Assembly (NCBI RefSeq): GCF_003583935.1
Contig: NZ_QYRN01000001.1
Coordinates: 620,001 to 684,000 of the forward strand
Source: Aureimonas flava
GTDB lineage: Bacteria > Pseudomonadota > Alphaproteobacteria > Rhizobiales > Rhizobiaceae
Length of the DNA: 64,000 nt
Reading direction: 5' to 3'
Position 1 is the first letter of the stretch. Every line of letters starts with the position of its first letter. The notes beneath the pieces are model-generated. The model worked only from the letters and a program-made list of their open reading frames with translations, had not been told where the DNA came from and did no database searches. The position numbers and the translations under genes are program-made. Positions 37,201-57,146 of this stretch are shown in pieces.

Positions 37201-37746
37201 ATGGCGGGCAGCGTCAACAAGGTCATCCTCGTCGGCAATCTGGGCGCCGATCCCGAGATCAAGCGGCTGAATTCCGGCGATGCGATCGCGAACCTGCGCA
37301 TCGCGACGTCCGAAACCTGGCGCGACAAGAACTCGGGTGAGCGCAAGGAGCGCACCGAGTGGCACAGCGTGGTGATCTTCAACGAGAACCTGGTAAAGGT
37401 CGCCGAGCAGTACCTGAAGAAGGGGTCCACGATCTACATCGAGGGCCAGCTTCAGACGCGCTCGTGGGAAGACCAGCAGGGCCAGAAGCGCTACACGACC
37501 GAAGTCGTGCTCCAGCGCTTCCGGGGAGAACTGCAGATGCTGGGCGGTCGCGGCGACGGCGGCGGCGGCGGCTCGTCCTACGAGGGCGGCGGCGGAGATC
37601 GCTCCGGCGGCCGCTCGGGCGGTGGAGACTACGGACGCGGCTCCGGCGGCGGTGGCGGCCGAGGGCAGGGCGGCGGCGGGTTCGGCGGTGGCGGTGGCGG
37701 CGGTGGTCGCCCGTCCGACGACATGGACGACGAAATCCCGTTCTGA
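37201..37746 (+). CDS. ssb: Single-stranded DNA-binding protein
   Basis: SSB coats single-stranded DNA in replication, repair and recombination. The ATG at 37201 ([20 protein letters not shown]) gives 181 aa: an OB fold to about residue 112, a Gly-rich linker and the acidic tip DDMDDEIPF that recruits partners. The frame extends upstream to 36979 without similarity. Its last nine bases, stop codon included, are the left attachment repeat of the island, so insertion left the protein intact but separated ssb from its native downstream sequence. Confidence 0.97.
37738..37746 (+). repeat. Left attachment-site repeat (attL) at the ssb 3' end
   Basis: CCGTTCTGA forms the last two codons and stop of ssb. 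The same nine bases occur at 57138-57146 in direct orientation, just outside the other element end. This is the footprint expected of site-specific insertion or target duplication. Confidence 0.7.
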
Positions 37747-37750
37747 CAGG

Positions 37751-37773
37751 TGGGGTCGGCGCAGTGTAAACTG
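37751..37773 (+). repeat. Left terminal inverted repeat
   Basis: TGGGGTC (37751-37757), six bases, then GTGTAAACTG (37764-37773). The right end has the same two blocks in inverse orientation (57112-57130) with a two-base spacer. A further GTGTAAACG lies at 37869-37877, giving a subterminal repeat on this side. Confidence 0.65.
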
Positions 37774-37855
37774 AAAGCCTGATTGCGGAGCTTTCGCAAC
37801 GAGTTGAGTCGTGCGCACCTCATTGCGCTTGCACCGCCAATTTTTCACTGATCTT

Positions 37856-37890
37856 TTGGCGCTCATCCGTGTAAACGAGATGGGCGCCAA
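37856..37890. repeat. Inverted repeat around a GTGTAAAC core, just before TR-A
   Basis: Arms TTGGCGCTCAT (37856-37866) and ATGGGCGCCAA (37880-37890) match at 10 of 11 positions and flank a 13-base centre containing GTGTAAAC. The layout of two arms around a short spacer is that of a tyrosine-recombinase core site or a dimeric operator. The right arm ends at the A of the TR-A start codon, so binding here could also repress TR-A. Confidence 0.5.
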
Positions 37891-39140
37891 TGCGTGCTGA
37901 ACAGGCATCACAGGCTACCGGAAGCGTAAAGGTGACGATCCTGCGCGGCGGGGAGCGTTTCCCGCTGTACCACGGCCGGAATGGTGTTCCGGACCCCTGG
38001 ATCACGCGCTACTGCGCCGTCGAGCTCCGCACGGCCGGCCTTTCGGTGAATACCATCGCCCGTGCAGCGAAAGCGGTGGCGCTCCTGCTGGACTGGGCGG
38101 CGGCGAGGTCGGTCGACATCACGGCGCGCATCGAGTCGGGCGATTTCTTCACGCACGAAGAAAGCCTCGACCTATCGAACTGGCTCCGGCGGAGCCGCGC
38201 GAGGGCAAAGGCAGACGGCACCGTAAAGGCCGTCGTGGACGCCAACACCCATGAGAATCGTGTGAGCTGCGTGCGCAGCTACATTCGCTGGCGCGGGGAA
38301 ATCGCGGTCCACCGCATCCCAGTCGCTTCCGGTCGGTACGGAGACGGTTCGAAAAAGCTGGCGGCCTGGGACCGCATGATGTCCGGCCTCGCGCGGGGCG
38401 GGACGACGAAAAAGAGGTACGGGCTCACCGATGAGCAGCGCGCGTTGTTCCTCCGGATCATCCATCCCGACGCCGACGGCAATCCCTTCGACCGTCATCA
38501 CCGCCACCGCAACTACGCTATCCTCCTCGCATACTACGAACTTGGACTGCGGCGCGGGGAACCCTTCGTTCTAAAGTCCGGCGACCTGCGAATCAGCGGA
38601 GCGACCCCGAAACTCGCGGTGCGAGCTAGGCCGGACGATCCCGATGATCCACGTCCCGACCAGCCGCTCGTGAAGACGGCGGAGCGGCTGCTCCCGGTCG
38701 GAGCGGAGCTGCTCGGCGCCCTCGACACCTGGATCTTGCGGAACAGGTCCGACAAGGATCGCTATCCGGGCGCCAAAAAGCACCCCTTCGTCTTCGTCTC
38801 GGAGAACGGGCGCCCGATGGCGCTCCGCACCGTCTACGACCTCTTCGTCAAGATGCGGGAGCGCTATCCCGAGCTGCCGCGGGACTTCTCGCCGCATATC
38901 CTCCGCCACGACTGGAACGACAGGTTCTCCGCCCTTTGCGACCGCCGGCGGGAGGCCGACGCGTTGGCCAACGTCCCGCAGTCGCATCGACTGACGAAAG
39001 CGAAGGAGGAGAGCGTGAGGAACTACCTGATGGGATGGAAGAAGCACTCCAAGCGCGCGGCGACCTACACGAACCGCAGCACCGAGGCGACCGCCTCGGA
39101 ACTGATGCTGACTTTGCAGGACCGCAGCACCAATGGCTAG
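37890..39140 (+). CDS. Tyrosine recombinase TR-A
   Basis: This 416-aa site-specific recombinase has a SAM-like core-binding N-terminal domain (about residues 20-130) and a C-terminal catalytic domain. Catalytic residues are visible: Arg I in YELGLRRGEPFVL, His-x-x-Arg in SPHILRHDWNDRF, a late His in WKKHSKRA, and the nucleophile Tyr in ATYTNRSTE. All look intact. It is the first gene inside the left end, reading inward. Its stop (TAG in ATGGCTAG) overlaps the start of a truncated TR-B relic, so a coupled TR-A/TR-B pair was once complete here. Confidence 0.88.
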   Translation: MRAEQASQATGSVKVTILRGGERFPLYHGRNGVPDPWITRYCAVELRTAGLSVNTIARAAKAVALLLDWAAARSVDITARIESGDFFTHEESLDLSNWLRRSRARAKADGTVKAVVDANTHENRVSCVRSYIRWRGEIAVHRIPVASGRYGDGSKKLAAWDRMMSGLARGGTTKKRYGLTDEQRALFLRIIHPDADGNPFDRHHRHRNYAILLAYYELGLRRGEPFVLKSGDLRISGATPKLAVRARPDDPDDPRPDQPLVKTAERLLPVGAELLGALDTWILRNRSDKDRYPGAKKHPFVFVSENGRPMALRTVYDLFVKMRERYPELPRDFSPHILRHDWNDRFSALCDRRREADALANVPQSHRLTKAKEESVRNYLMGWKKHSKRAATYTNRSTEATASELMLTLQDRSTNG

Positions 39141-39241
39141 AACCGCAACGGGTCGCCCGCCCATGCCTCAGCCCCGCATTTAGGTCAGGCGCGCCCCCGA
39201 GGACGAGCGGTTCGTCGTGGCGCGCGCCGGCACGACCCTCG
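39133..39241 (+). pseudogene. Relic of a TR-B recombinase 5' end
   Basis: Starting at ATG 39133, the translation MARTATGRPPMPQPRI, stop, then VRRAPEDERFVVARAGTTLD aligns with the start of intact TR-B at 50232 (MARSATHPPSAPQPAVEVRS, then VPEGERFVVTRAGTTLD). An in-frame TAG at codon 17 and loss of similarity after about 39241 make it a dead fragment. It marks where an ancestral recombinase operon was cut. Confidence 0.75.
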
Positions 39242-39351
39242 ACGTGGCGGCTGACGCCGGACACCGACAGGTTCATCTCGGCCGCAGCGCGCGTCATGCT
39301 CCGCGCTTCCGCGACCCTGACGAACGCCTGCAACTCGGTCCAGCGATCCAT
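39242..39351 (-). pseudogene. Truncated LysR-type regulator, N-terminal helix-turn-helix only
   Basis: On the minus strand from ATG 39351 the translation MDRWTELQAFVRVAEARSMT, then RAAAEMNLSVSGVSRHVE, is a recognisable LysR-family winged HTH start. Similarity stops at about 39242, where the sequence abuts the TR-B relic from the other strand. Only about 37 residues remain, so it cannot be functional. The junction of two 5' fragments head to head implies a deletion or recombination event. Confidence 0.65.
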
Positions 39352-39757
39352 TTCGGAGCCTTCGTTGACAGCGGCGTCTTCGACACTCACCGCCGGTTCT
39401 CCGATGTAGTGGGTGGGCTGTAACTGAGTCGAGGACGTCGGACCCGAAAACCAATAGGTCCGATTTTGACAAATGCCGTCACAAGCTCGTGGCGAAGAAG
39501 CCGTCGGCTGGCAGGCCGGATCGGTTGCTCCGCGGTCACGCTATCCTCTTAACGTGCATGTCGAGATTCTAAGCTCGGGGAAGCCGCGCGCGCCATATGT
39601 CTTGGCTCACATCACCCCGGAATACGTAGTAGAACCTGGGAATGAAGCCACTAATCGCTCCCGAGAAACGATTTCCTGCTGATATGGTTGTTCGGTCGTC
39701 GATCATGCCGGACATCAGAGTCCGCAGACCATCGGCGCGAGCTTGAGGAGGGAAGCT
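39352..39757. other. Intergenic region upstream of mkoA
   Basis: About 400 bp without a supported gene. Short open frames here show no family pattern. A TTGACA hexamer at 39466-39471 has no acceptable -10 partner. The mkoA promoter is probably in the second half but cannot be fixed by eye. Confidence 0.4.
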
Positions 39758-42700
39758 GTGGGACGAGGTTCTCGGCAACTCGGCAAGCACACCCTCGCCG
39801 CCCGCTTCCGGTTCTCCGAGGACTCGATAAGGGTCGCGGGAGGCGCGCTGGCGTCGCGGCTAGCCCGGGCTACCGACGTGGAGACGGGCGAGCCATGCCT
39901 CATGAGGTTGTTCGCCAAAACCGGCACGGCGATCGATGAGGATGTTCGCAGGCTTGTCGACGGCGGTATCCGCCGCATCCGCCGCGTCTTCTCCTCACGG
40001 CGGGCGAGAGAGGTTCTCGTCGAGGTGACCGAGGTCGTGGAGGACGAGCACGAGCTTGGCATCGTAATGCTCGATCCCGGAACTCCGTTGCTCGGCTCTG
40101 CGCGAAGGACTGCCCTTCGGCGCCAATCCTGCATGACGAACCGCGGCCGGCGGGACTTCTGGCTCAACATGTCCCGGGTCATCGAGGGACTGACAAATTG
40201 TCACGACGCGGGCATCGTGCACGGTGCCATCGACGGGTCGGCGATCTTCGCCGGCGACGAGCAGGCACTGAGCTACCGGCTCGGCGGCTACGAGGCGTGC
40301 GTGCATATCACCGACGATCCGCGTCCGTCCGAAATGGCGCTCAGGACGTCGAGCGCCGTTTCCTTCCGTCAAGATCTGGCTGACTTAGCCGAAGTGATAC
40401 GCTCGGCGCTCGGTCTCGGACAGCCGGAAGAACCCGTCCTGACGAATATCGAGAGGCGCATGCTGGCCAGGATGGCCGATCCGCCGCACTTCCAGCTCTA
40501 CGACGGCCATGTCGCCCTCTCGGATTTGGCCGAGGTCATCGAGGACCTTGCTCGGCTCGGCACGAGCGTCGAGGGCGAGTTGGTCCTCTACCCGGGGCAA
40601 GACGTCCTGCGGAGCGATCTGCCGTCCTTGGCATCAGGGGCGATCCCGGCGGAGAACAGGGAAGCGGTTCTGCGGTTCGTCGCGGACGACCTGCTCGGAC
40701 CGGACACGCGCCTGGTGGGAATCGACGATCGCAAGGTCCGGGTCGTGACCGACCTCGCCACGTATGTGGTCGAACTCGTCGACGATCGGATCGGCATGAT
40801 CGTGCGCGGGGGGAAGCGACGGCCGAACGACGCCATCGCGGATGCGGTCGACATTAAGCGGCGCATCCATCTGGCGAGGCACCGAGGCGCGGCGGCCGAG
40901 CGTGTCCGCCGGCTCGGCAACGGTGCCCTGTCCTGGATGGGCGTGCGGGAGGCACCCGCGCCCACGGCGCCATTCGACGATCCGCCCTCCTGGCATGCAC
41001 TGATCCTGTTGGAGGCATTCGCGCTCTTGAGGCAGCAGTTCCGCACCTTCCCGGTCGAGACGATCGCACCTCCTCGATCCCGAGCCGATCTCGTGTGGAT
41101 CGCCGCTCGGAGCGACGAGGAACGCGCAGAGCAGCGGAAGCGATTGAAGCTGCCGCCGCTGGCCGTAGCGCTGGATCGGGAAATGAAGCATGACGAGGGG
41201 CGCGCGGATTGGACGGTCTCGCTCAGCGACACACTGGGCCGACCCAGGGAGCGGCTCCCCGAACTCGCCCTGGAAATGATCGATGAGATCGGGGGTCGAC
41301 TGGCCTATGGTTTCAGGTCGAGCGAACCCGTCCTGACTGGACAGGACCTCTTTCTGCGACCGCGCACCGAAGCCGGAACCGAGGGCGCCATTCGCCGCCG
41401 GCTGCAAAACGTCGTGGCCGCAAGGGCGAACGTCGAGCTTCTGAGGGCGCTCGACGACCCCGCAAGCGTCGCGATGGACGCGGCCCTGCGGGCCGTCGCA
41501 GTACCGGGTGAGCCTCCACCCGACCTCGACGGATCCAAGAGAGGAGCTTGGGAGGCTATTGCGGAGGGGCGATCCATCAACGTTGTCGTTGGGCCACCCG
41601 GCGTCGGGAAGACATATCTCATAACCCGGCTGATTGAGAGCATCCTCGTGGGGACGCCGAACGCACGCATCCTGGTGGCGTCCCAGAACCACGAGACGCT
41701 CATCACGATGGAACACGAGCTGAAGGAGGTGCTGACGGCACACGGCAAGATCGTCGTGCGCGTGGAGAAGTCCGAAGTGCAGGCGGATGCCACACTCCTG
41801 AGGCAGACCTCGCGAGCCTGCCTCGAGGCAGCGCTGCGCTCGGAGATCACGGGCCCGCTCGTCAATCCCTATCGCGAGATCCGTGAGGCGCTGCGGCCGA
41901 CCGACGTGGCCGAGCGGGTTCTCGCCGAACGTGTCATGCGCGACACCGACAGCCTGCTCCTGCGCTCGGCGGACGTGACGCTCGCGACGACCTCGTCGTC
42001 GTTCGTCGAGGACATGATAGCCGATGGGGAGCAGTTCGACTGGGTCTTCGTCGAGGAGGCCGCCCGTGCCAACGGGGCCGAGCTGATTGGCGCGCTTCTC
42101 CTCGGCAACCGGCGCGTGATGATCGGCGACCATCGGCAGCTATCTCCCTTCGAGGCGGATGAGCGGAAGAAGTTCTTCGAACCTTTCCGCGCGGAGGAGC
42201 TGCTCAAGGACGGGGCGGAGCGGCTAGCGTCGATCCCGGATCTCCCGCCGGAGGTCGATACGACGTTCGAGCGACTGAACGCCGATCGAGGGCTGCTGAT
42301 CGATGTGTTGGCCACCGCCACCCGACTGGAGGAGCCGTTCCGCTCGATTGCCGAGAGGGAGAAGGAACGCGAGGTCGATCTGGGTCGTCCGAGCGTCGTG
42401 GCGAAGACACTGCGGGAACAGAGCCGCATGCACCCGGCCATCTGTCGGATCGTCTCCCGCACGTTCTACGACGGCGATCTCGTCCCGACCGACCGGGTCA
42501 TGGACCGGAAAGCGACGGTTCGCTCGCGGGGCGGTTTCCCGACGTCGCCGATCGTCGTGCTGGATCTGCCGCCACTCGGTACGTCCAGCCTTCGATCCTT
42601 CGAGAGGAGGAAAAGGAAGGATCTGACAAATCCGTCCGAGGCCGCGGCCTTGGTCGAAGCGGTCAAAGGCGTGGCTCCGGCCGTGGACGCTGAAGTTCAG

Positions 42701-43171
42701 CCGAGCCTCGTCGTGTTGGCGACCTACACCGGGCAGGTCAAACTTCTCGAACTTCTCCTAAAGCCGAGGATCGACGCAGAGGGGCGACTTAGGGGCTTCG
42801 TCTCCCCACGCGGAGACGGGCGCTTCGTTTATACGAGCGACAGCTTCCAAGGCGGCGAGGCGGACGTGGTCCTGGCGAGCTTGGTGCGCAACAACGTCGT
42901 GGTCGGCAGGCCGGCTCTGGGGTTCTTGAGCAACCCGCAGCGATTGAACGTCCTCCTGAGCCGGGCGAGGCAGAAGCTTATCGTCGCGACGAGCCTCCAG
43001 TTCCTCTCCGATGTCGTGGACGGGACCGATCGAGACAGGACCGGCGGGCCATTGAGTTTCATCCGGACGCTCGTGGAGGAGTTGCGCGAATCGGCAGGCG
43101 AGGCGGACGCGGGCCATCCACGAGGCGCGACGATCCTGGCGCGGGACGAGCGCGGAAAGAGCGCCCGATGA
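39758..43171 (+). CDS. mkoA: Mokosh-like MkoA: pseudokinase domain fused to Upf1-type SF1 helicase
   Basis: This large cytoplasmic protein of about 1137 aa is probably an anti-phage effector or sensor. GTG 39758 behind GAGGAGG is preferred over TTG 39743. Residues about 15-260 have a Ser/Thr kinase shape: an N-lobe Lys region (EPCLMRLFAKTGTA) and a catalytic loop HDAGIVHGAIDGSAIF. HRD has become HGA (residue 155 on), and DFG has become GGY (176-178), so it should be inactive as a kinase. From about residue 595 an SF1 helicase of the COG1112 kind follows: GPPGVGKT (about 612-619), VFVEEAARA, IGDHRQLSPF, REQSRMHPAI, DSFQGGEADVVL and LNVLLSRARQKLIV. A kinase-helicase protein followed by a PLD protein is the described type I Mokosh layout. 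mkoB overlaps by four bases. Confidence 0.75.
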   Translation: MGRGSRQLGKHTLAARFRFSEDSIRVAGGALASRLARATDVETGEPCLMRLFAKTGTAIDEDVRRLVDGGIRRIRRVFSSRRAREVLVEVTEVVEDEHELGIVMLDPGTPLLGSARRTALRRQSCMTNRGRRDFWLNMSRVIEGLTNCHDAGIVHGAIDGSAIFAGDEQALSYRLGGYEACVHITDDPRPSEMALRTSSAVSFRQDLADLAEVIRSALGLGQPEEPVLTNIERRMLARMADPPHFQLYDGHVALSDLAEVIEDLARLGTSVEGELVLYPGQDVLRSDLPSLASGAIPAENREAVLRFVADDLLGPDTRLVGIDDRKVRVVTDLATYVVELVDDRIGMIVRGGKRRPNDAIADAVDIKRRIHLARHRGAAAERVRRLGNGALSWMGVREAPAPTAPFDDPPSWHALILLEAFALLRQQFRTFPVETIAPPRSRADLVWIAARSDEERAEQRKRLKLPPLAVALDREMKHDEGRADWTVSLSDTLGRPRERLPELALEMIDEIGGRLAYGFRSSEPVLTGQDLFLRPRTEAGTEGAIRRRLQNVVAARANVELLRALDDPASVAMDAALRAVAVPGEPPPDLDGSKRGAWEAIAEGRSINVVVGPPGVGKTYLITRLIESILVGTPNARILVASQNHETLITMEHELKEVLTAHGKIVVRVEKSEVQADATLLRQTSRACLEAALRSEITGPLVNPYREIREALRPTDVAERVLAERVMRDTDSLLLRSADVTLATTSSSFVEDMIADGEQFDWVFVEEAARANGAELIGALLLGNRRVMIGDHRQLSPFEADERKKFFEPFRAEELLKDGAERLASIPDLPPEVDTTFERLNADRGLLIDVLATATRLEEPFRSIAEREKEREVDLGRPSVVAKTLREQSRMHPAICRIVSRTFYDGDLVPTDRVMDRKATVRSRGGFPTSPIVVLDLPPLGTSSLRSFERRKRKDLTNPSEAAALVEAVKGVAPAVDAEVQPSLVVLATYTGQVKLLELLLKPRIDAEGRLRGFVSPRGDGRFVYTSDSFQGGEADVVLASLVRNNVVVGRPALGFLSNPQRLNVLLSRARQKLIVATSLQFLSDVVDGTDRDRTGGPLSFIRTLVEELRESAGEADAGHPRGATILARDERGKSAR

Positions 43172-44928
43172 TGATCTACATCGCGGCTTGGCACTATCGA
43201 GCACGTGTGGTCTTTCAGCGGACCTGGGGCTGGAGCCCGGTAGAGGAGCTCGTGCTCTTGCATCTCGATAACTCGCCTGGATCGATGGAGACCATCAGGG
43301 TCGATCTGGGTCTGGATGCGCAGGTGGTCGGTGCGACTTTGTCACGGCTGATGCGGTTCGGCTTGATCGAACTGCGGACATATCCCTCTCCATCCCTGAC
43401 CACGAGCGCGTTGGGTCGGCAGTTCATACGTTCAGGCCAGCCTCTGCCAGAGCGAACCGTTGATCGCGAGGTGCCCGTGAGCCTCGTCTACGAGCGCGTC
43501 GGCCAATCGGTGTTTAAGCGCCGGGACGTGGACTTTGTGCCCGAACGGGAGATCGGGCATTTCCACTCCGCCGTGAGGTTCTCGCGGGAGGAGCGTGACG
43601 AGACCGACGAGACAATGGCGCTACGCGTCGGACGTCACATGGCAGGCTCGATGCGGCCTGGGGAGTGGCTACGGGGTGTCACCGCCATCAACTCGGTCTT
43701 GCGGCGCGTCTACCTCAAGATCGACCTGACCGACGTGCGGAACGGCATCTTCCCAAAGAACGCGAGCGAGGAGCTCGTCGCTGCCCTTCGCGCGACGATG
43801 GAGAGCGGGAGCCTGCCGTCCCTCACGCGCGAGGAGCCTCCGCCGTCCCCATCCATCGAAACCGAATTTGGACCGGAAAACTTCCTTGTGGGATCCGCCG
43901 ATCATGTGGATCGGTTCGTCGAGATCGTGGATCGTGCCAGCCAAGACGTGTTCGTCCTTTCTACCTTCGTTGCTGACCAAGCTGATGAAAAGGGCCGCGA
44001 CCGCCGGAACCGCATCCTCGAAGCTCTGGAGCGTGCGCTCAAGCGTGGCGTGCGATGCCACCTATTCTTCGGGACCTCGCGCGACGAGCACGGCAAGCAC
44101 GCGCAGGCAATGGAAGACCTGCGCCTCAGGCTGTCGGCAGGAAGCGTAACCCGCGGGTACCTGAAGGTCCACCGTGATCCCGTCAGGAGCCATGCCAAGA
44201 TTTTGGCGGCCGACGACGGAGCGGGGGGCGCGGTCGCTGTCATCGGATCATGCAACTGGTTGTCGTCACCCTTTTCGGCCGTGGAGGCTTCGGTGATCCT
44301 TAAGGAAGCCGGTGCCGCGGCCATTGGCTTGAACATCCTGGGCTCCATCGTGGCGCCGCTCGCGGACGCGAGCCGATCCCGCGAGTCCTTGCGCTTCATG
44401 GCGGCCGAGCTACGCCGTTCCCTGGAAAGCCCCGGTAAGCGCCCAACGCCGTCCGCGCTCCCGAAAGCCCGCCTGTCCGTCGTCTACTCCGCCGACCACG
44501 AACGTTTGCTCCGGAAGGCGGCCCATGAAGCCGATCGGCGCTTCGTCTGTTGCACGCACAGGCTTGGTGCGCCGATGGTCCCGGCATTGTTCACTCCCGC
44601 GGAAGTGGCGGGTCGACGCCTGGAGGACGTAAGGGTGCTCTACTCACGGCAGACGGGACCCGTCAAACGACGTCACGTTTCCGAGCAGCGCGAGCGTCTC
44701 GACGGTCTGGTGCAGGTAATAGGGGTGAAAGAGCCCCAACTTCACTGCAAGTTCCTGCTTTGGGACGACGACGACGTGGTGGTCAGTACGATGAACTGGG
44801 GGTCACAGTCGGGAAGGGACGACGATCCGTTGGACGAGATTGGCGTCCACCTTCAAGGGCCTGGATTGGCAGCAGCGCTCCTCGAACGCGTCGAGCATTT
44901 GCTGCTGGCGACAGACGGAGGCGAGTGA
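43168..44928 (+). CDS. mkoB: Mokosh-like MkoB: phospholipase D-family nuclease
   Basis: This 586-aa protein starts in the mkoA stop (ATGA overlap). Residues about 15-90 resemble a winged-helix domain (VEELVLLHLDNSPGSMETIR, then LSRLMRFGLIELRTYPSPSL). Two PLD half-sites follow: HAKILAADD with GSCNWLSS (His342, Lys344), and HCKFLLWDDDD with STMNWGSQSG (His526, Lys528). Together they form one composite PLD active site, in this setting expected to cut nucleic acid. In described type I Mokosh systems the PLD protein is the nuclease partner of the helicase. Substrate and trigger are unknown. The gene is followed by about 340 bp without a gene and a terminator. Confidence 0.75.
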   Translation: MMIYIAAWHYRARVVFQRTWGWSPVEELVLLHLDNSPGSMETIRVDLGLDAQVVGATLSRLMRFGLIELRTYPSPSLTTSALGRQFIRSGQPLPERTVDREVPVSLVYERVGQSVFKRRDVDFVPEREIGHFHSAVRFSREERDETDETMALRVGRHMAGSMRPGEWLRGVTAINSVLRRVYLKIDLTDVRNGIFPKNASEELVAALRATMESGSLPSLTREEPPPSPSIETEFGPENFLVGSADHVDRFVEIVDRASQDVFVLSTFVADQADEKGRDRRNRILEALERALKRGVRCHLFFGTSRDEHGKHAQAMEDLRLRLSAGSVTRGYLKVHRDPVRSHAKILAADDGAGGAVAVIGSCNWLSSPFSAVEASVILKEAGAAAIGLNILGSIVAPLADASRSRESLRFMAAELRRSLESPGKRPTPSALPKARLSVVYSADHERLLRKAAHEADRRFVCCTHRLGAPMVPALFTPAEVAGRRLEDVRVLYSRQTGPVKRRHVSEQRERLDGLVQVIGVKEPQLHCKFLLWDDDDVVVSTMNWGSQSGRDDDPLDEIGVHLQGPGLAAALLERVEHLLLATDGGE

Positions 44929-45233: not shown

Positions 45234-45271
45234 CAGGTTCCATCGACGGATCCTGCACACCAGCTTCGTCC

Positions 45272-45625: not shown

Positions 45626-45641
45626 GTCCACCGACACTGCG

Positions 45642-48667: not shown

Positions 48668-48735
48668 TAATCCGGGATGCTGCCCGCCCTCCGCAAATTG
48701 TTGACACAAGGGGCCGCTCGGGGATCCTGGCCGGG

Positions 48736-49050: not shown

Positions 49051-49841
49051 GCACGCGTGCGGCGTGTCCGCGACGCGACGGAGGCTGATCCGGAACGACT
49101 GCCTAGTGTCGCGTCTGCCCGCCGCGACCGGGATCTCGGCAGGGCGGCGCGGCTCGCGGGGGGCTCCGGCCCGTCGCGGCCGCGGAGGGACAACCTTGTG
49201 CCGGCATCGTGCGCCCGACCGGGGCGGCCGCAGCGACGCGAGGGACTGCGATCCGCAGCTTGAAGGCAACGCGCGCCGTCCCTGGGCATGACCTCGGCCG
49301 TCGACGCTTTGTCGCGGGTCAGTCAACGAAGGCGGGGCTTGGCCCGAGGGACGGGTAGCGGGAGGCGACGGCGGTTCGCGTCATGGCACGGGCGGCCGCG
49401 CGAGTAGCTCGGCGCACGCGCTTTCCCGCGGCGAAGGTCAACGGGGAGGCTGCGCCCGAGGGTGTGCCTCACGTCGGGGGTCATTTTGGCCGCGACCTTC
49501 GCAACCGTTGCCCGCTAGCACCCGAAAGCTCCCTGCACGACAGACCAGCTCTGCCCATTTCTCAGCATCGCCGCGATGCCGGCGTTGCGCCTCGCGTCTT
49601 CGGGCAGACCCTTTGTAGCGACCGTCCGCCTTGGCTCTCACCTGACCCTCACCGATGCGCCGTCGGCGGTCCTCGTCGTCCGTCCTCGCGACCGCTGCGA
49701 GCATGTCGAGCACGTCGAGCATCATCGCGTTGACCGCGTCGAACATTCGACCGCACTAATCGGCGGGAATGGTTGTTGCAGCGACCAGAACGAATGCATC
49801 GTCGCAGTCGTTGGAACGTCAAAGCGCCAAGCTGAAGACCC
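49051..49841. other. Gene-free stretch between xre and the recombinase module
   Basis: About 790 bp in which all open frames look like noise: arginine-rich or cysteine-rich translations without family pattern or RBS. It may be decayed sequence left over from earlier insertions. The GC-rich character ends abruptly near 49840, where an AT-rich patch begins. Confidence 0.4.
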
Positions 49842-49865
49842 GTGAAAAATGAAATCATTCTTCAT
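49842..49865. repeat. 24-bp imperfect palindrome, copy 1
   Basis: It starts GTGAAAAATGAAATCATT and ends CTTCAT. It is almost the reverse complement of copy 2 at 49897-49920, 55 bp further. Both lie in an AT-rich island upstream of the TR-B operon and could be operators, accessory recombinase sites or transposon-end remnants. Confidence 0.6.
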
Positions 49866-49896
49866 TCCTGTATCTGCACAACGTTCTGGCAGCCTT

Positions 49897-49920
49897 GTGA
49901 AAAATGATTTCATTTTTCAC
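49897..49920. repeat. 24-bp palindrome, copy 2
   Basis: The arms GTGAAAAATGA and TCATTTTTCAC are perfectly inverse around a TT centre. A smaller inverted repeat CGAAT-GT-ATTCG (49921-49932) follows directly. A related ATTTTTCAC is found at the left end of the island (37841-37849). Confidence 0.65.
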
Positions 49921-50152
49921 CGAATGTATTCGATGGAGAATTATTCATTTACAGCGAGCGCGCGATTGATTTATCCATCATAGTTAGTCACGATGCCTGC
50001 CCATGTACCAGGAAGCGGCTTCTTATATCGTCAAGGTGCGGCGCTTCGCCGGCGGCGAGCAATGCCCGCTGGCCCACGATGCGAAAGTCATCCTCGCCCG
50101 CGCGCCGAACCTTTGCGCGTTGATCTCGCTTCGCCCGCGTAAGGGGTCGTCG

Positions 50153-50239
50153 GGAACGCTGACTTACACGAACCACAGCATCGAAGAGACCTCCCCTAAA
50201 CTGATACTCGGATTGCAGGACCACAGCACCAATGGCTAG
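50153..50239 (+). pseudogene. Relic of a TR-A recombinase 3' end
   Basis: The last 28 codons (GTLTYTNHSIEE to LQDHSTNG) align with the C-terminus of intact TR-A (AATYTNRSTEAT to LQDRSTNG), including the nucleophile Tyr. No catalytic domain precedes it; upstream similarity is lost at about 50153. Its stop sits in ATGGCTAG, overlapping the TR-B start exactly as at the left copy. The divergence from TR-A shows that the two junctions came from related but different elements. Confidence 0.75.
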
Positions 50240-51797
50240 GAGCGCAACGCATCCTCCCTCGGCGCCCCAGCCCGCTGTCGAGGTCAGGAGCGTCCCCGAA
50301 GGTGAGCGGTTCGTCGTGACGCGTGCCGGCACGACTCTAGACACGGGCGGGATGGTCTGGAAGCTCGAGAACCCTTCGCGCACGTTGACGATCGACCTGC
50401 ACGACATCGAGATGGCGACCGCCGCCGTCCGTAGTGCGATCGAGAGTTATCTGCGCCATACGATACGCCTTTATTCCGTCGGGGAGATCGCTGGGAACTG
50501 GGCAGTCCTTCGGATGGTAGTGGCTTGCAGGTCGGCGGCCGAAGCAGTGCTGCCTTATAGGATCCTTGGCGAAGTTCGGGAGCAGTTGAAGCCCCACGAG
50601 CACTACCGCCTTCACTACCTACGCAAATTCTACAATTGGTGCTGCGACCAGGGGTTCGACGGCTTCTCCGACGAAGTTGCGTTCGAGATGAACGAGCGAG
50701 TGTTCGGCGGGAACGACAAGGGAGAAGCGGTTCTTTCTGCGGACCCTCAGGAAGGTCCACTCGATGATCGTGAGATCTACGCACTGACCAACGCATTGCG
50801 GGGTGCACGCGTGACAGGAGCTTTGACATTGGCCGAACAAGCGGCCGTCTGGCTTTGCGTCGGACTGGGGAGTAACTCCGGCCCCCTCGCTCTGCTACGA
50901 GAGGAAGACTTCAAAAGCATAACCGCCGAAGGGACGGCGGGTAAGACGTATCTGCTTCAGGTTCCGCGACACAAGAAGGGCGATGTCCAATCTCGTAGCC
51001 AGTTCCGGGCTAGAAAGCTCAATGCGGACATCGGTGTCGTCATCGAGGCGTTGTTAGAAGAGAACCGCATGGCCGACGGGGGTGAGCCTGATGCTTCCCG
51101 TCCACTACTCATGCGGTCGAAAGAGCGCCGGGATCTCAGCCGGGAAGGCGAACTGACGGATTATCTATACCACCATACGTCTGTAGGAGTGCTCAACTTG
51201 GTCGCCCGCGCTGTGAAGAAGCTGGGCGTCATATCCCACCGAACCGGAGAGCCGCTGAAGGTGACGGTCCGCCGCCTGCGTTACACCTTCGCCACGCGAC
51301 TTGTTCGGGAAGGCGCCTCGCAGCGCGTCGTGGCGGACGCCCTGGACCACACCGACCTCCAGAACGTGGCCGTCTACTTCGACATGAAGAGCGACGTAGT
51401 GGAGCGGCTGGATGCCGCTATGGCGCTCCAGCTCGGGCCGTTGTCGCAGGCCTTCCTCGGCACCCTGGTCCGAACGGAGGCCGACGCCGTGAACGGCGAC
51501 CGACGCAGCAGGCGCATCCTTCACTCGGATCGGTCGAAGGGCACGCTCAAGCCGCTCGGAACGTGCGGCAGCTTCTCGTTCTGCGGGCTGAACGCGCCCG
51601 TCGCCTGCTACACCTGCGTCCGCTTCCAGCCTTGGATTGACGCCCCGCACCAGGAGGCGTTGGACGGGATGCTCGGTGAACGCCAGCGGCGCGTCGACGA
51701 GGGCCAGGACCCGAGGATGGTCACGCTGTTCGACACGACGATCCTCGCCATCGCTGATGTCATCGTTCAGATCAACGAGATGCGCCGTGCGGCTTGA
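50232..51797 (+). CDS. Tyrosine recombinase TR-B
   Basis: This 521-aa recombinase starts at ATG 50232, inside the TR-A relic stop. The catalytic domain shows VTVRRLRYTFATRLVREGAS (Arg II region), ADALDHTDLQNVAVYFD (late His and Tyr). The Arg I position reads CVGLGSNSGPLALLREEDF, where active enzymes have an Arg (GLRRGE type), so the Arg I residue seems to be lost. A C-terminal Cys cluster (GTCGSFSFCGLNAPVACYTC) suggests a zinc site. It overlaps TR-C by 11 bases. Confidence 0.83.
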   Translation: MARSATHPPSAPQPAVEVRSVPEGERFVVTRAGTTLDTGGMVWKLENPSRTLTIDLHDIEMATAAVRSAIESYLRHTIRLYSVGEIAGNWAVLRMVVACRSAAEAVLPYRILGEVREQLKPHEHYRLHYLRKFYNWCCDQGFDGFSDEVAFEMNERVFGGNDKGEAVLSADPQEGPLDDREIYALTNALRGARVTGALTLAEQAAVWLCVGLGSNSGPLALLREEDFKSITAEGTAGKTYLLQVPRHKKGDVQSRSQFRARKLNADIGVVIEALLEENRMADGGEPDASRPLLMRSKERRDLSREGELTDYLYHHTSVGVLNLVARAVKKLGVISHRTGEPLKVTVRRLRYTFATRLVREGASQRVVADALDHTDLQNVAVYFDMKSDVVERLDAAMALQLGPLSQAFLGTLVRTEADAVNGDRRSRRILHSDRSKGTLKPLGTCGSFSFCGLNAPVACYTCVRFQPWIDAPHQEALDGMLGERQRRVDEGQDPRMVTLFDTTILAIADVIVQINEMRRAA

Positions 51798-53814
51798 ACG
51801 ACTCCCGTCCGGCCTGCTCGTCGAGGCCCGCCGGAACCTCGCTGCCTTCGTTCGTCGCGGGCGCCATGACATCGTTGCGTTGGGCGAAGACCTGCCGTTC
51901 GACGCTCCTGCATGGGACCTCACGCGCTTTTCCCAAGCCCGAGCGTCGTCCGGAAGCCGCAAGTTCGTGCTCTACTTCACGACATCCGAGAACGGGAACG
52001 CGAAGGGGCTGGAAGGACGCGTACCCCTGTCGGAGCCGTTCGCAGGCTTCATCAAGACAGTGGCACGCCTGCGCTACGACGCGAACCCGAAGGTGCCCCA
52101 GACCCTCGCCGTCCTCGTGCGCGCGTCACGCTACCTGCACGACGTCCTGGCGGACCGCGGCTACGATCCGTGCGAGCTGGTGAAGGCGGACTTCGATGAG
52201 GCGGCCGGCTTATGCATGGTCCGGGAAGCGGCGAGTTCGCGCTACCGGGTAGGCGTGTTCCTCGCCGAGATCGCCGACTGGCTGAACCGCTATTCGCTGA
52301 CGAAGGGTAGGATCACCTTCCGCAACCCTTTCCCAAGGGTTGCCTACGACGGCACACGCCTCGGCGACGATCACGACGACCGCGGGAAGAAGAAGCTTCC
52401 GAGCCCCGAGATGCTGGACGCGCTCAGCCAGCTCGCGAACCTCGTCGAGTCGCCGCCGGATGTCATCCGGATGCGAGCGATCGAGCTCTTGGTCTGCGGC
52501 GGCTGGCGCATCAACGAGCTTCTCACGTTGCCGGAGAACTGCGAGGTGGAGGAGGACGCGTTCGAGAACGGCCGCCCGGTCCTCGGCCCCGATGGTGCGC
52601 CGCAGCTCCGTTACGGTATCCGGTACCAGCCTGAGAAGGGCGGGAAGCCCGCGATCAAGTGGTTGCCGACGCCGATGGTGGACGTTGCCAAGCGCGCCGT
52701 CGCCGACATTCGGGACCGGACCATCGAGGGCCGGAGCGTGGCGGCATGGCTCGAGGCCAATCCCGGTCAGGCCTATCTTCCGGACGGTCTTCGCGATCGG
52801 GCGACGCTTTCCAGCCGGGACCTGGAAGCCGCCTTCGGCTTGGTGAACGGCACGGGTAACCAGTGGGCCAAGAACAGGAAGCTCGTGCCGGTCGAGGTCG
52901 TTGCCCGAACATCGCACTACACCCGCCAGGACGTGGAGGCGGCCCTCCTGGCTGACCAACGATCCTTGAAGCCCAAGAACCCGACGAGCATGCCGCTCTC
53001 GAAGCACCTGTTCGTGACCCCGCTCAATCTATTCCATGACCAGCGCGGCACGAACGCCAGCGTCTTGTCCCTCCTGACGGACCAGCAGATTGCCGACTTC
53101 CTCGGCGGGCGGGTGTCCGACCGCGGGGCCGCCAAGTCGGTGTTCGAGCGCTTCGGCTTCGTGGACGAGAACGGCCGGCCGTTCGAGATGAACAGCCACA
53201 TGTTCCGCCACTGGCTGAACACCATGGCCCAGCAGGGCGGCATGGGCCAGCACGAGATCGCCCGGTGGTTCGGTCGCAAGGACGTCGGCCAGAACACCGC
53301 CTACGACCACCGGTCGGCCATGCAGATGGCCGAGGAAGCCAGGGAGCTTCTGGCGACGGGGAAGGTCATCGGCGGGGTCGGGGCACGCCACGATCGGCTT
53401 CCCCCCATCGAACGGCCGAAGTTCCGCGCGGCGGTGTTCGCCACCGGCCATACGACGGATCTCGGCATGTGCGGATCGGACTGGAGCCTTACCCCGTGCC
53501 TCAAGCATGGCGCCTGCGGCCACTGCGAGGAGCTCTTCATCGAGAAGGGCAACCCCGACCAGAAGTGCCGGGCCGAGACCATGCTCGAGGAGCACGAATG
53601 GCTGCTCGAACGGGCGCTCGAGGAGGTTGCCGAGGAGACGTTCGGGGCGTCGAACCACCTCAACCACATCCGCCTCATCGTCAACGGGCTAAGGCGCATC
53701 GTCGCCGTCCACAACGACCCGTCGATCCCGGACGGGACGCTTGTCCACGTCAATCCGGAAGGACTGGACGAGGAACGGCGGCAGTTGCTGGGCCTCGTTC
53801 CCAAGTTGGCGTAG
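51787..53814 (+). CDS. Tyrosine recombinase TR-C (large)
   Basis: GTG 51787 overlaps the end of TR-B and gives 675 aa. The frame upstream to 51637 is a shadow of TR-B. Catalytic residues look complete: Arg I in VCGGWRINELLTLP, the HxxR motif in NSHMFRHWLNTMAQ, and QNTAYDHRSA for the terminal Tyr. A Cys-rich C-terminal segment (MCGSDWSLTPCLKHGACGHC) may bind zinc. The size is close to TnpB of Tn554 (about 630 aa), and the order of two recombinases followed by a small helper also matches Tn554. Confidence 0.85.
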   Translation: MRLERLPSGLLVEARRNLAAFVRRGRHDIVALGEDLPFDAPAWDLTRFSQARASSGSRKFVLYFTTSENGNAKGLEGRVPLSEPFAGFIKTVARLRYDANPKVPQTLAVLVRASRYLHDVLADRGYDPCELVKADFDEAAGLCMVREAASSRYRVGVFLAEIADWLNRYSLTKGRITFRNPFPRVAYDGTRLGDDHDDRGKKKLPSPEMLDALSQLANLVESPPDVIRMRAIELLVCGGWRINELLTLPENCEVEEDAFENGRPVLGPDGAPQLRYGIRYQPEKGGKPAIKWLPTPMVDVAKRAVADIRDRTIEGRSVAAWLEANPGQAYLPDGLRDRATLSSRDLEAAFGLVNGTGNQWAKNRKLVPVEVVARTSHYTRQDVEAALLADQRSLKPKNPTSMPLSKHLFVTPLNLFHDQRGTNASVLSLLTDQQIADFLGGRVSDRGAAKSVFERFGFVDENGRPFEMNSHMFRHWLNTMAQQGGMGQHEIARWFGRKDVGQNTAYDHRSAMQMAEEARELLATGKVIGGVGARHDRLPPIERPKFRAAVFATGHTTDLGMCGSDWSLTPCLKHGACGHCEELFIEKGNPDQKCRAETMLEEHEWLLERALEEVAEETFGASNHLNHIRLIVNGLRRIVAVHNDPSIPDGTLVHVNPEGLDEERRQLLGLVPKLA

Positions 53815-53815
53815 G

Positions 53816-54274
53816 ATGGCGGGCAAGGGAAAGCCGAAGGCACAAGCGAAGCCGACCAAGGCGGGGCGCCGTGTCCCTATCAAGACCTTCCACATCGAGG
53901 CCATCGTCAGCGCGGTCAAAGCGTCGGACATGGCCCCGACCTGGGAGGACATCCGCGACATCGGCGAGCGCGCGTTCGGCCACTGCTGGACGCGACAGGC
54001 GCTCGAACGGCACGATGCGATCAAGGAGGCCTACCTCGCCCGGCAATCCAAGAGCGGAGCGTCCAAGTCGGCTCCGTCCAAGGACCCCGCCATCGACCTT
54101 CTCGAGCAACGGATTGCGTTGCAGGCGGCCGAACTCGAGCGCCTGCGCATGACCATCGGTGAGCTGAACGACTTGTTCGTTCGGTACCAGTACAACGCCC
54201 ATGCCCGCGGCATCTCGCCGGCGGAACTCGAAGCCTCCTTGCCGATCGTGCCGAAGAGGCGTTCCCATGGGTAG
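53816..54274 (+). CDS. Small basic coiled-coil protein of the recombinase operon
   Basis: ATG 53816, two bases after the TR-C stop, gives 152 aa. A Lys-rich N-terminus (MAGKGKPKAQAKPTKAGRRV) is followed by a helical part with an HTH-like stretch (MAPTWEDIRDIGERAFGHCW) and a coiled coil (LEQRIALQAAELERLRMTIG). It is probably a DNA-binding accessory factor of the recombinases. I do not recognise a named family. Confidence 0.7.
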   Translation: MAGKGKPKAQAKPTKAGRRVPIKTFHIEAIVSAVKASDMAPTWEDIRDIGERAFGHCWTRQALERHDAIKEAYLARQSKSGASKSAPSKDPAIDLLEQRIALQAAELERLRMTIGELNDLFVRYQYNAHARGISPAELEASLPIVPKRRSHG

Positions 54275-54656
54275 AAGCGGCGCCGAAGTCGGACGCGAGA
54301 ATGCCAAGCGCTTGCGGTCGTACCTGGACGGCGCACCCGAGCTGCCGGTTCGAGGCGGAAAGCTACACGTCCAGGCGATCGCCGACGCCGCCGGGATCGA
54401 TCGGCAGACGCTCTACAAGAACGCGAGCTGTCGCGCGTTGATCGAGGCCGCGGCCGCGCGCGTCGGCGCAGATGCCGTTGCCAAGGGCGGCCCCGCCGCG
54501 CTCGACCCCGAACATGCGCGCCTGGAGCGGCGCGTGTCCGAACTCGAGCGCGCGAACGCAGCGCTCCGGGTCGAGGTCACTGAGCTGCGGTCAAGGCTTC
54601 GGCGTCTCGCCCACGTCGAGGAACATCTGACTGAGACGGGTCGGTTGGTCCGGTGA
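54267..54656 (+). CDS. HTH plus coiled-coil helper, DUF6262/TnpC-like
   Basis: ATG 54267 overlaps the preceding gene by eight bases and gives 129 aa. A helix-turn-helix of TetR-like shape (VQAIADAAGIDRQTLYKNAS) is followed by a long coiled coil (LERRVSELERANAALRVEVT). This layout resembles TnpC of Tn554 and the DUF6262 family, which accompany tyrosine-recombinase transposons. The family call is tentative. Confidence 0.65.
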   Translation: MGRSGAEVGRENAKRLRSYLDGAPELPVRGGKLHVQAIADAAGIDRQTLYKNASCRALIEAAAARVGADAVAKGGPAALDPEHARLERRVSELERANAALRVEVTELRSRLRRLAHVEEHLTETGRLVR

Positions 54657-56779
54657 CCCAGGCCGTGATCATCGAGTCTGTTCTCACTCCTGACGGAAGA
54701 ATCTTCAACGGCCGGGACGAGGACGGGCAGCGGCGGCGCTTTGTGTGCCGGACGATCTTCCGTCCGCCCGTCGTCGGCGAGACGTGGCAGGTCGCGGGCG
54801 TGGTCAGGAGGCATCCGACGCACGGTCAGCAGGTCGAGGTATCGTCCGCACACCTCGTGGTTTCGGCCGGCCGCGCCATCGTCGAGTTGTTGCAGGGGCC
54901 GAGGTTCCCCGGTGTCGGCCCCGCCGCCGCCTCGCGCCTCTGGTCGGCATTCGGTGCCCGTCTTCCCGAGCTGCTCTCCGAGGGTGAGGAAGGGGCGATC
55001 GCGGAAGCGCTCGGCGGGACGGACAACGCGTGGCGGCAGGCCGCCACGCTCACGGGGACTTGGCCCGACGTGCGCGGCGAGGCTCATGTCGCGACCTGGC
55101 TGGACCGCGCCGGGATCGGCCCCGCGGTCGCGACCAAGGTCGCGTCCTGCTATGGCTCGGACGCCACGGCGTTGCTCGAGGAGGATCCGTACAGGCTGCT
55201 GGCCTTCATGCCGTGGTCGGCGGTGGACGGCCTCGCGACCAGGATGGGGGTGGCCCCCGACGACCGCCGACGGCTGGTGGCAGCATGCGAGGCGGTCCTG
55301 TACGAGGCCCTCGACTCATCCGACACCTGGTTGCCCGACGCGGGCTTCCGTCGCGCGCTGGGCCTTAAGCTCTCCGGGCGGGCGCTCGTCGCCAAAGCCC
55401 TCGCGTGCGCTGTCGAGATGTCGGTCGTCGAGCGCATCGACGGGGGCTGGCAGGCGCTTGGTCCTGCCACCATGGAGAGGTTCGTTGCCGGCCGGGTGGC
55501 CGAACTCGTCCGCCGGGGCGGTCGCTCCGGCCTTGAACTTCCGCCCACCGACCGACATGGACTGTCGGAGGAACAGAAGGCCGCCGTCCGGATGGCGGTG
55601 ACCTGGCGCTTCAGCCTCCTTCTAGGCGGCGCCGGAGTCGGGAAGACCACAGCTCTTCGCGCGCTCTGCGACGTCGCGAGCGGTCAGGGCTTCGACCTGC
55701 ACCTCATGGCGCTCAGCGGCCGGGCGGCCAAGCGCGTCGCCGAATCGACCGGTAGGTCTGCTTCGACGATCGCCAGATGGCTTCAGGCGGTCTCCGCCGG
55801 GACGACCGGCTTCGGGCAAAGGCCACTCGTCGTCGTCGACGAGGCATCCATGGTGGACCTGTCATCGCTCTACAGGATCATGAGGGCCACCCCGGACGAC
55901 GGAGGGTACGTCCTCATCGGCGACCCGGGCCAGTTGCCGCCCGTGTCCTTCGGACTGACGCTGCATGCGCTCGTTCCGTGCGCGTCGGTGCCGCGAGTCG
56001 AACTGTCCACCGTGTTCCGGCAGGCGGCAGCGACCGGCATCCCGACCCTCGCCGCGGCCATACGTGTCGGTGACGTGCCCGAGATCCCTGCCTTCGCAGG
56101 CACGGAGCTGACCGGGGCGCACTTCGTCGAGTGTCCCGTCACGGGCATCGTGGGCACGGTGGCGAACCTGCTGGATCGCCTCGACGACGGCTCCGTCCAG
56201 GTGATCGGCTCCGTGAAGGGCAGGGGCGATTCGAACGACGGCGGCATCCGCGCGGTGAACGCGGTGATGCGGGCCAAGCGATCCGGCGGCAAGCCCGAGC
56301 TGACCGGCGGCTTCTTCGAAGGGGAGCCGGTGGTCTGGACGCGCAACGACCGGGACCGGGGACTGACGAACGGCACGCTCGGCCACGTGGCCGGCGAACG
56401 GGACGGCGACGGTGGGAGACGGCTGCGCGTCACGTTCGACGGGGTCGAGCACGAACTCGCCGGCGATTCGTTGCGCAACCTCGAACTCGCCTGGGCGATC
56501 ACCGCCCACAAGAGCCAGGGATCGGCGTTCGGCACGGTGATCGTCCTCGTCTCGCCAAACCGCCTGCTCGACCGGGCACTCCTATATACTGCGGTGACGC
56601 GCGCCCGCGAGCGGGTCATCCTCATCGGCAGCGTCGGTGCGTTCGCGAAGGCCGTCGGGTCGCCGCCTTCTGCATCGAGGAGGTCGGTCGCGCTCGGCGC
56701 GCATCTCGCCGCGCTCGGCCTCGCCGAATCGGACAATGATGCCGCATCGGCCACAGGGCAGGTGCCGGCCGGGTCCTGA
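54653..56779 (+). CDS. RecD2-like SF1 DNA helicase
   Basis: GTG 54653 overlaps the preceding stop (GTGA) and gives 708 aa. The N-terminal third has RecD2-type helix-hairpin regions (LLQGPRFPGVGPAAASRLWS and GIGPAVATKVASCYG). The helicase motifs are LLLGGAGVGKTTALRALCD (Walker A), VVVDEASMVDLSS (Walker B), IGDPGQLPPVSFG and WAITAHKSQGSAFGTVIV, then YTAVTRARERVILIGS. Being the last cistron of the recombinase operon, it may unwind DNA during excision or integration, or replicate the element. Helicases are not part of known Tn554-type modules. Confidence 0.85.
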   Translation: MTQAVIIESVLTPDGRIFNGRDEDGQRRRFVCRTIFRPPVVGETWQVAGVVRRHPTHGQQVEVSSAHLVVSAGRAIVELLQGPRFPGVGPAAASRLWSAFGARLPELLSEGEEGAIAEALGGTDNAWRQAATLTGTWPDVRGEAHVATWLDRAGIGPAVATKVASCYGSDATALLEEDPYRLLAFMPWSAVDGLATRMGVAPDDRRRLVAACEAVLYEALDSSDTWLPDAGFRRALGLKLSGRALVAKALACAVEMSVVERIDGGWQALGPATMERFVAGRVAELVRRGGRSGLELPPTDRHGLSEEQKAAVRMAVTWRFSLLLGGAGVGKTTALRALCDVASGQGFDLHLMALSGRAAKRVAESTGRSASTIARWLQAVSAGTTGFGQRPLVVVDEASMVDLSSLYRIMRATPDDGGYVLIGDPGQLPPVSFGLTLHALVPCASVPRVELSTVFRQAAATGIPTLAAAIRVGDVPEIPAFAGTELTGAHFVECPVTGIVGTVANLLDRLDDGSVQVIGSVKGRGDSNDGGIRAVNAVMRAKRSGGKPELTGGFFEGEPVVWTRNDRDRGLTNGTLGHVAGERDGDGGRRLRVTFDGVEHELAGDSLRNLELAWAITAHKSQGSAFGTVIVLVSPNRLLDRALLYTAVTRARERVILIGSVGAFAKAVGSPPSASRRSVALGAHLAALGLAESDNDAASATGQVPAGS

Positions 56780-56847
56780 CCCTTGGTGAGCCCCGAGCGA
56801 CCCTCCTCGACACCGCGCCCGCCGCGGTGGATGCCGCCCTTGGTCCT

Positions 56848-57011
56848 GACCCTCGGAGCCGCCCGTCGCGATCCCGGAAAGGCACGGGAGGTTCGACCGA
56901 AGCGACTGAGGCTCAGGGGACCCGCGCCACCTGTGGCGTGGGGTGGCCGCAGGGAGCGCAGGGCGGTCCTTCCGTGCCAGGGATCGTGAGCGACGGGCGG
57001 CTCCGAGGGTC
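56848..57011. repeat. 164-bp imperfect inverted repeat near the right end
   Basis: Perfect 22-bp outer arms (56848-56869 and 56990-57011, starting GACCCTCGGAGCC on the left) continue inward with GATCCC/GGGATC (56870-56875, 56980-56985) and GGCACGG/CCGTGCC (56881-56887, 56972-56978). The loop contains GCCACCTGTGGC. Transcribed, it would fold into a long hairpin 70 bp after the helicase stop. It could be a terminator, a small structured RNA or a folded DNA end. Confidence 0.7.
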
Positions 57012-57034
57012 GATGAAGGACTCGAATGTCAACT

Positions 57035-57130
57035 CCTTTACACCCCGATCTTTTACCCTCAGCGTCGTGCCTCGACGACGAAACCGTTGAGAACCATGGC
57101 ACTGACACACACAGTTTACACCTGACCCCA
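57035..57130 (-). repeat. Right terminal inverted repeat and subterminal repeat
   Basis: In inverse orientation to the left end: TGGGGTC (57124-57130), two bases, GTGTAAACTG (57112-57121), then a weaker GTGTAAAGG (57035-57043). The left end likewise has one terminal and one subterminal GTGTAAA block. Confidence 0.65.
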
Positions 57131-57137
57131 CAAGTAA

Positions 57138-57146
57138 CCGTTCTGA
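57138..57146 (+). repeat. Right attachment-site repeat (attR)
   Basis: CCGTTCTGA repeats the last nine bases of ssb (37738-37746) in direct orientation, seven bases outside the right terminal repeat. The sequence after it (ACGTCGGCC) should be the native ssb downstream flank. Confidence 0.7.

Follow-up and report, generated by a model that had tools for sequence, protein, structure and literature searches.

GInts are transposons of the Tn6571 family that bear defence systems in Escherichia coli (PMC10121019). They are described as requiring all four of the genes ginA, ginB, ginC, and ginD, which form one operon, and six GInts were reported at the same ssb site (PMC5385486). Some of them give circles without a detectable empty site (PMC5385486). 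We analyzed a 64,000-nucleotide stretch of Aureimonas flava (assembly GCF_003583935.1, contig NZ_QYRN01000001.1, positions 620,001 to 684,000; we number it from its first letter and call it the window). In this genome, an island of about 19 kb (37738-57146) lies directly behind an intact ssb gene. We identify it as a GInt-type (Tn6571-family) element occupying the ssb site that is usual for GInts, but we consider it a variant and not a standard GInt because its ginA and ginB are 11,191 nt apart. This kind of element is already published; what is new here is the internal architecture, which we did not see in the other loci that we examined.

The profiles for GinA, GinB, GinC, and GinD all match proteins from the island, and the genes lie behind ssb in their usual relative order. 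ginA (37890-39140, + strand) is an open reading frame (ORF) for a tyrosine recombinase of 416 amino acids (aa), identified by its profile. The other three genes are at the right: ginB (50232-51797, +), which encodes a tyrosine recombinase of 521 aa according to both the profile and a tree; ginC (51637-53814, +), which encodes a large recombinase-like protein; and ginD (53741-54274, +), which encodes a small protein that was found by its profile. (The listed ORF for ginC overlaps ginB, and its true start is probably near 51.8 kb.) The matches in the window cover positions 1-384 of 385 for GinA, 1-486 of 486 for GinB, 1-630 of 631 for GinC, and 3-134 of 135 for GinD, using profiles that were seeded with the window's own proteins and then trained on relatives. 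We also examined conserved columns, which we defined as having R, H, Y, K, W, or D in at least 85% of the 79 GinA, 83 GinB, or 87 GinC rows. (These rows include the window and some repeats.) The window keeps 25 of 26 conserved columns in GinA, 25 of 25 in GinB, and 29 of 31 in GinC. Among the conserved columns are the H-x-x-R-H and late Y columns of GinA and GinC, which we take to be catalytic.

The island resembles the described GInts in several ways. It has ginABCD (three tyrosine recombinase-like genes plus the small ginD), it is inserted site-specifically at the 3' end of ssb without altering the encoded protein, and it is bordered by short direct repeats (CCGTTCTGA at 37738 and 57138; PMC5385486, PMC10121019). 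Also, as those GInts can, it carries defence genes as cargo. The difference is in the layout. In the published order, a contiguous ginABCD operon at the 5' end is followed by cargo and then by a short 3' end, whereas the island has no contiguous ginABCD operon at its 5' end. Instead, the cargo lies between ginA and ginBCD, and only two genes, E and recD, are found between ginD and the 3' end.

The borders of the island had been proposed in a first-pass annotation of the window. The target gene, ssb (37201-37746, +), is an intact ORF of 181 aa. Its final nine bases, CCGTTCTGA (37738-37746, +), form the left core of the attachment (att) site. The annotation had them recurring at 57138-57146 (the right core, +), and this is indeed the only other copy on either strand of the window. 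Taken alone, the pair is weak, as 0.52 matches are expected and at least two were obtained in 6 of 100 shuffles. The inverted blocks that had been noted at the ends are real. At the left, TGGGGTC (37751-37757) and GTGTAAACTG (37764-37773) are within the arms GTGGGGTC and GTGTAAACTG (37750-37773, +). At the right, CAGTTTACAC (57112-57121) and GACCCCA (57124-57130) are within the arms CAGTTTACAC and GACCCCAC (57112-57131, - strand), which are an inverted match of the left arms. If the ends are joined as in a circle, then the 8-nt arms GACCCCAC and GTGGGGTC surround an 18-nt centre that contains the core, and the 10-nt arms CAGTTTACAC and GTGTAAACTG flank the 8-nt arms on the outside.

Two other signals support these borders. 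The motif GTGTAAA occurs twice at each end of the island, in opposite orientations (37764 and 37869-37875 at the left, 57037-57043(-) and 57115(-) at the right). Four copies in 64 kb compares to 0.59 expected, and four were reached in 1 of 100 shuffles. The subterminal copy at 37869 is where it had been placed, but its counterpart at the right starts at 57037 instead of 57035. The hairpin past the right core exists as well (GGGGCGAC...GTCGCCCC) and begins at 57191, which is 45 nt after the core. The 94 nt past the right core have a folding z of -2.3 (equalled in 7 of 200 shuffles), and there are further hairpins inside. The GC content of the island is about the same as that of its flanks, and composition is uninformative. 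ARAGORN found no tRNA in the window that could be the target instead. Between recD and the right end there is also a perfect 22-nt inverted repeat (56848-56869 and 56990-57011, 120 nt apart).

The spacing at the left end is shared by other GInts. Of 59 ssb-adjacent loci (including the window and two repeated genomes), 22 have TGTAAA 18-19 nt past the end of ssb, as compared to 4 of 1711 control windows. The other 37 of the 59 loci lack an exact copy; many of them, by eye, have a one-letter variant. Together, the repeated cores, the inverted end blocks, and the alleles in relatives (see below) support an island that inserted site-specifically behind ssb and left the gene intact, and the proposed borders are correct.

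We then compared the spacing of ginA and ginB across GInts. A search with GinC at E 1e-30 in 397 genomes of the order identified 6 beyond the window. Scanning a genome collection with the GinC alignment of those genomes gave 172 relatives, and we retained the best 80. We ran profiles for six genes (ginABCD, E, and recD) and for ssb on these best 80 of 172, on the six genomes, and on G007, a relative from the same genus. Both ginA and ginB were found in 84 loci including the window (80 others once three repeats are removed). In 83 of the 83 other loci, the gap is 60-239 nt, versus 11,191 nt in the window, taking the nearest pair in each locus (in a stacked array, this measure could overlook a further set that is split). 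(The 239-nt gap is from locus L170, where ginA is broken.) In 52 of the 80 collection loci, ssb is at most 1.5 kb before ginA; of the remaining collection loci, four have no ginA and a number are cut by contig ends. In the window, the 11,191 nt, which include the Mokosh genes described below, separate an intact ginA at the left from an intact ginBCD at the right.

The island is not one simple unit, which the first-pass annotation could not see; it reads as a mosaic of at least two GInts. First, the junction between the tail of ginA and the start of ginB is present twice, at 39062-39243 and 50161-50342. The two copies are identical at 140 of 182 nt and have sharp edges, and each is only about 50% identical to Mesorhizobium locus L125. 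At the left, ginB is a stub (39133-39243, +) with an in-frame TAG at codon 17. Its homology to the right ginB stops sharply at about 39243, where the shared stretch ends. Abutting the stub is a cut lysR, a truncated LysR HTH fragment (39241-39339, -; Pfam HTH_1, E 3e-9, profile positions 2-34 of 60). Judging from the sequence, the stub and the cut lysR are what a deletion would leave.

Second, a short chimeric ORF that we call mini-ginA (50003-50239, +, 78 aa) precedes the right ginB. Its N-terminus is nearest to the GinA of L127 and L130 (42-47% identity over 43 aa) and not to the left ginA. Its C-terminus resembles the tail of the left ginA, and the two parts are fused in frame. The ORF is open to the native ginA stop, which overlaps the start of ginB.

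Third, 121 nt before mini-ginA is a core-like site, CGTTCTGGCAG (49882-49892), which is the only other match to CGTTCTGNCAG in 64 kb (0.15 expected). It is flanked by two near-palindromic arms (49842-49920). This region could be the junction of two stacked GInts, or it could be an operator or terminator. Its spacing is not standard, and for this reason it backs stacking only weakly.

Phylogeny adds to this picture. The left GinA, the right GinB, and the right GinC are each sister to Mesorhizobium L125 (supports of 100/99, 100/99, and 97, from trees of 79 GinA, 83 GinB, and 87 GinC rows, the GinC tree by a quick method). This sister placement and the matching outer ends imply that the survivors are one subfamily's full recombinase set plus one matching pair of ends. 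By BLAST score, E and recD are nearest to L133 and L140. (L125 is not a contender here because no E or recD was found in its locus.)

We think that the island is probably a collapsed stack of GInts at ssb, with complementary losses of gin genes. At least two, and probably three, GInts would have stacked at one att site, and each unit would then have lost different gin genes through deletions. The left unit would have kept its left end, ginA, and the Mokosh cargo and lost ginBCD. The right unit would have kept ginBCD, E, recD, and its right end and lost most of ginA. The collapsed array would again possess a complete set of gin genes and one pair of ends that match, now with the cargo between ginA and ginB. 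(The gene content, the split, the joints of the mosaic, the end motifs, and the site are observed directly, whereas we infer the order of these events, the number of parent elements, cross-complementation between the halves, and mobility.)

Stacks of GInts do occur in other bacteria. Both Tepidimonas (L149/L150) and Paraburkholderia elongata (L197) have a stack of two GInts behind ssb. In the Tepidimonas loci, the core is repeated as CCGTTCTAG before the second ginA; in L197, the second module runs off the locus inside recD. Another locus, L141, has a second, partial ginC-ginD. A search for end motifs gave nine matches in total, four of which are normal left ends that lie close to the edge of a contig. 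Two loci, L142 and L161, have a right-end motif together with a core and a new left end, and the sequence beyond contains no ginA. In L139 and L145, there is a core and a left end without the right-end motif, and the match in L144 has no gin context and is probably due to chance. Because stacking is seen at several other loci, it is not rare for GInts. We did not find it described in the available excerpts of PMC5385486 or in the literature that we searched. As an aside, the further left ends in L142 and L161, with no gin gene in the examined DNA, resemble gin-less passengers.

Several observations weigh against a collapsed, mobile stack. The split operon is in one genome only and was not found in any other surveyed locus. 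Outside of the known genes, tblastn found no remnant of a second ginC, ginD, E, or recD in the rest of the island. We also considered that a second gin operon might be hidden in the cargo, but a tblastn search of the masked island with sets of gin, E, and recD sequences returned mini-ginA and chance-like weak matches (to the GinA of L117/L127 at 44843-45019, E 3e-4, and to the GinC of L155 at 43713-43868, E 0.004). The internal core-like site is followed by TGAAAA at a distance of 8 nt, instead of TGTAAA at 18-19 nt, which is the spacing found wherever TGTAAA is exact. It also lacks the CACACA/TTTAC right-end pattern that is seen in other GInts, and it is part of a long hairpin (z -4.9), which may serve as an operator or terminator. 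Finally, there is no sign of activity, such as a circle, and no empty allele with the island's right flank was found in the 20 other members of the genus.

Could the island still move? By analogy with described GInts, the whole island would most likely move as a circle by the GInt mechanism: GinA, GinB, GinC, and GinD would recombine the outer cores, and the Mokosh genes would be carried along. The merged array would then be a re-formed working element whose obligatory operon is split by 11 kb of cargo, with GinA and GinBCD from different parents working in trans on the matching outer ends. The cargo would be locked between two halves that are obliged to move together. We offer this re-formed element tentatively and consider it rather doubtful. 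If the island is mobile, then the ginABCD operon can be broken and yet work, and stacking at ssb followed by complementary loss would be a route by which GInts gain cargo.

The main alternative to a mobile GInt is a dead relic, which agrees on the anatomy and is compatible with an origin by stacking. If so, the split is decay, the recombinases no longer cooperate, and the island is fixed. The broken ginB stub, the truncated ginA and lysR, the rearranged neighbourhood of ssb, and the missing empty allele all fit with a relic. But ginA, ginB, ginC, ginD, E, and recD are all open, with near end-to-end coverage of their profiles, most of the conserved residues are kept, and both outer ends match. 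We regard a relic as a serious possibility, if somewhat short of an even chance.

Another alternative is that there was never a second element: a single GInt was altered by an old duplication of its ginA-ginB junction, and the cargo was inserted between the copies. This would account for the single ginBCD-E-recD set with no remnants of another, for the matching outer ends, and for the non-standard internal site. Also, the junction copies are closer to each other than either is to L125. However, the copies differ by 23%, and the N-terminus of mini-ginA is nearest to another GinA lineage, which is not expected from a duplication in place. A single altered GInt seems unlikely, and a collapsed stack remains our preferred explanation.

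We also examined the neighbourhood of ssb in relatives. We searched 41 genomes (including A. flava itself) for ssb by DNA match and found it in 38. In four genomes (G002, G004, G009, and G015), ssb ends with CCGTTCTGA and continues without interruption into a convergent gene and then another gene, which from reading their sequences we take to be marC and gyrA. The nearest relative by ssb (G007, 94%) has a complete and different GInt between ssb and marC (locus L076). Its ginA, ginB, ginC, ginD, E, and recD are contiguous, with the cargo after them, and its six proteins are 30-43% identical to their counterparts in the window. (From reading, one of its cargo proteins looks TIR-domain-like.) Relatives thus have both occupied and uninterrupted alleles, which confirms the insertion site, the type of element, and the left border.

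The right flank is another matter. It is rlpA-like (57147-59200), which differs from what follows ssb in relatives. From about 57329 onward, it matches relatives, where it is not adjacent to ssb. In three genomes (G012, G016, and G019), marC-gyrA lies between ssb and the rlpA-like gene, which are separated by about 8-9 kb. None of the 20 other genus members has ssb directly beside rlpA, although in one of them (G010) the contig ends about 250 nt after ssb. In A. flava itself, the marC-gyrA segment is on a 10-kb contig (C12:9-8027; locus L090). We did not find the empty site that the first-pass annotation had predicted, CCGTTCTGA followed by ACGTCGGCCGCC, in any of the 20 other members of the genus. 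Because the right flank is rearranged relative to these genomes, the prediction that the empty site continues into ACGTCGGCC is neither upheld nor refuted.

Either the ssb-rlpA neighbourhood was rearranged in this lineage or the contig is misjoined, and for this reason the right border cannot be checked against an empty allele. A rearrangement before the insertion is favoured by the native-looking right core with hairpins behind it. On contig C12, the marC-like gene adjoins 2 kb of unrelated sequence, and the final 127 nt of that sequence are found again at or close to the ends of several contigs. We saw no GInt end beside marC on C12, so it is not demonstrated that the island caused the rearrangement.

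An assembly artefact that joined contigs from different GInts would explain both the mosaic and the presence of ssb-rlpA in place of ssb-marC. The genome is a 26-contig draft, the segment that is normally behind ssb is on a separate small contig, and ssb beside rlpA is not seen in the rest of the genus. We nevertheless consider an artefact to be quite improbable. A search with GinB gave one full copy in the genome, along with the stub and a weak match of 67 aa, which leaves no second gin set that could have misled the assembly. (The same search argues against a second GInt elsewhere in this genome.) Also, the right core equals the native end of ssb and has hairpins after it.

Other families of elements also use several recombinases plus small proteins (PMC10214605), but the gene order, sizes, and ssb targeting fit GInts, and it is very improbable that the island belongs with the SE, RIT, or Tn554-like elements, which we set apart by their descriptions only. 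SE elements are like the island in having two recombinases plus two further proteins, inverted terminal motifs, and chosen targets (PMC10214605). They differ in that their genes are intA-tfp-intB-srap, and the SE and GInt proteins fall in separate clusters (PMC10214605). We also rejected a phage origin, as GinC has no match in 50,697 phage records, and carriage by plasmids, as relatives of GinC are on 169 of 72,556 plasmid records, all at below 60% identity. (Of those 169 records, 115 are predicted to be conjugative, which is a possible route for the transfer of GInts.)

Our explanation for the island has a parallel in integrative and conjugative elements (ICEs) and cis-mobilizable elements (CIMEs) related to ICESt1. 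These elements undergo tandem accretion and deletion. (Tandem accretion of ICESt1-related elements is reportedly associated with Pavlovic and colleagues, 2004.) In both cases, elements would accumulate at a shared att site, and the units that remain after deletions may depend on a neighbour. The difference is that four proteins are required for recombination in GInts, and that the units of the island would have lost complementary genes. We recognised no conjugation genes in the island.

E and recD may be a regular part of some GInts. In the island, E (54201-54656, +, 151 aa) is DUF6262/VPA1267-like (below both cut-offs), and it is a distant relative of GinD (hhalign probability 97, E 8e-11). 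recD (54653-56779, +, 708 aa) encodes a RecD2-like SF1B helicase (NCBIfam RecD2, E 2e-98, below the cut-off). Including the window, 33 surveyed loci have recD (two are repeats), and E is also present in 32 of them; beyond the window, 32 loci have recD after ginD, 31 of them with E. This co-occurrence behind ginC suggests a six-gene core in part of the GInts. Neither "recD" nor "helicase" was found by a term search of the main texts of PMC5385486 and PMC10214605. An association of a helicase with the recombinases may be relevant to the remark that some GInts give circles although no empty site is detected (PMC5385486). The recurrent E and RecD2-like helicase, along with the stacked GInts behind ssb, help in understanding how these little-studied, defence-carrying elements move.

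Finally, we examined the cargo. MkoA (39743-43171, +) is the helicase of the anti-phage system Mokosh type I (PADLOC MkoA, E 3e-192; Pfam AAA_11/AAA_12). Adjoining it is the phospholipase D-like protein MkoB (43168-44928, +; PADLOC MkoB, E 4e-87; Pfam PLDc_2), and the two ORFs share 4 nt. As in Mokosh type I, both genes are adjacent, and they are near full length relative to the PADLOC models. (MkoA is said to have a kinase domain, which was not found by Pfam at E 0.01.) Mokosh type I differs from the rest of the island in being cargo only, outside of the mobility machinery. The remaining cargo includes a Lon-like AAA ATPase of 511 aa (45642-47177, -; Pfam AAA; NCBIfam Lon, E 2e-24, far below the cut-off) and an XRE-type HTH regulator of 104 aa (48736-49050, +; Pfam HTH_3). 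An ORF at 49441-49746(-), which has no Pfam match, looks like the tail of a serine resolvase and is possibly a relic.

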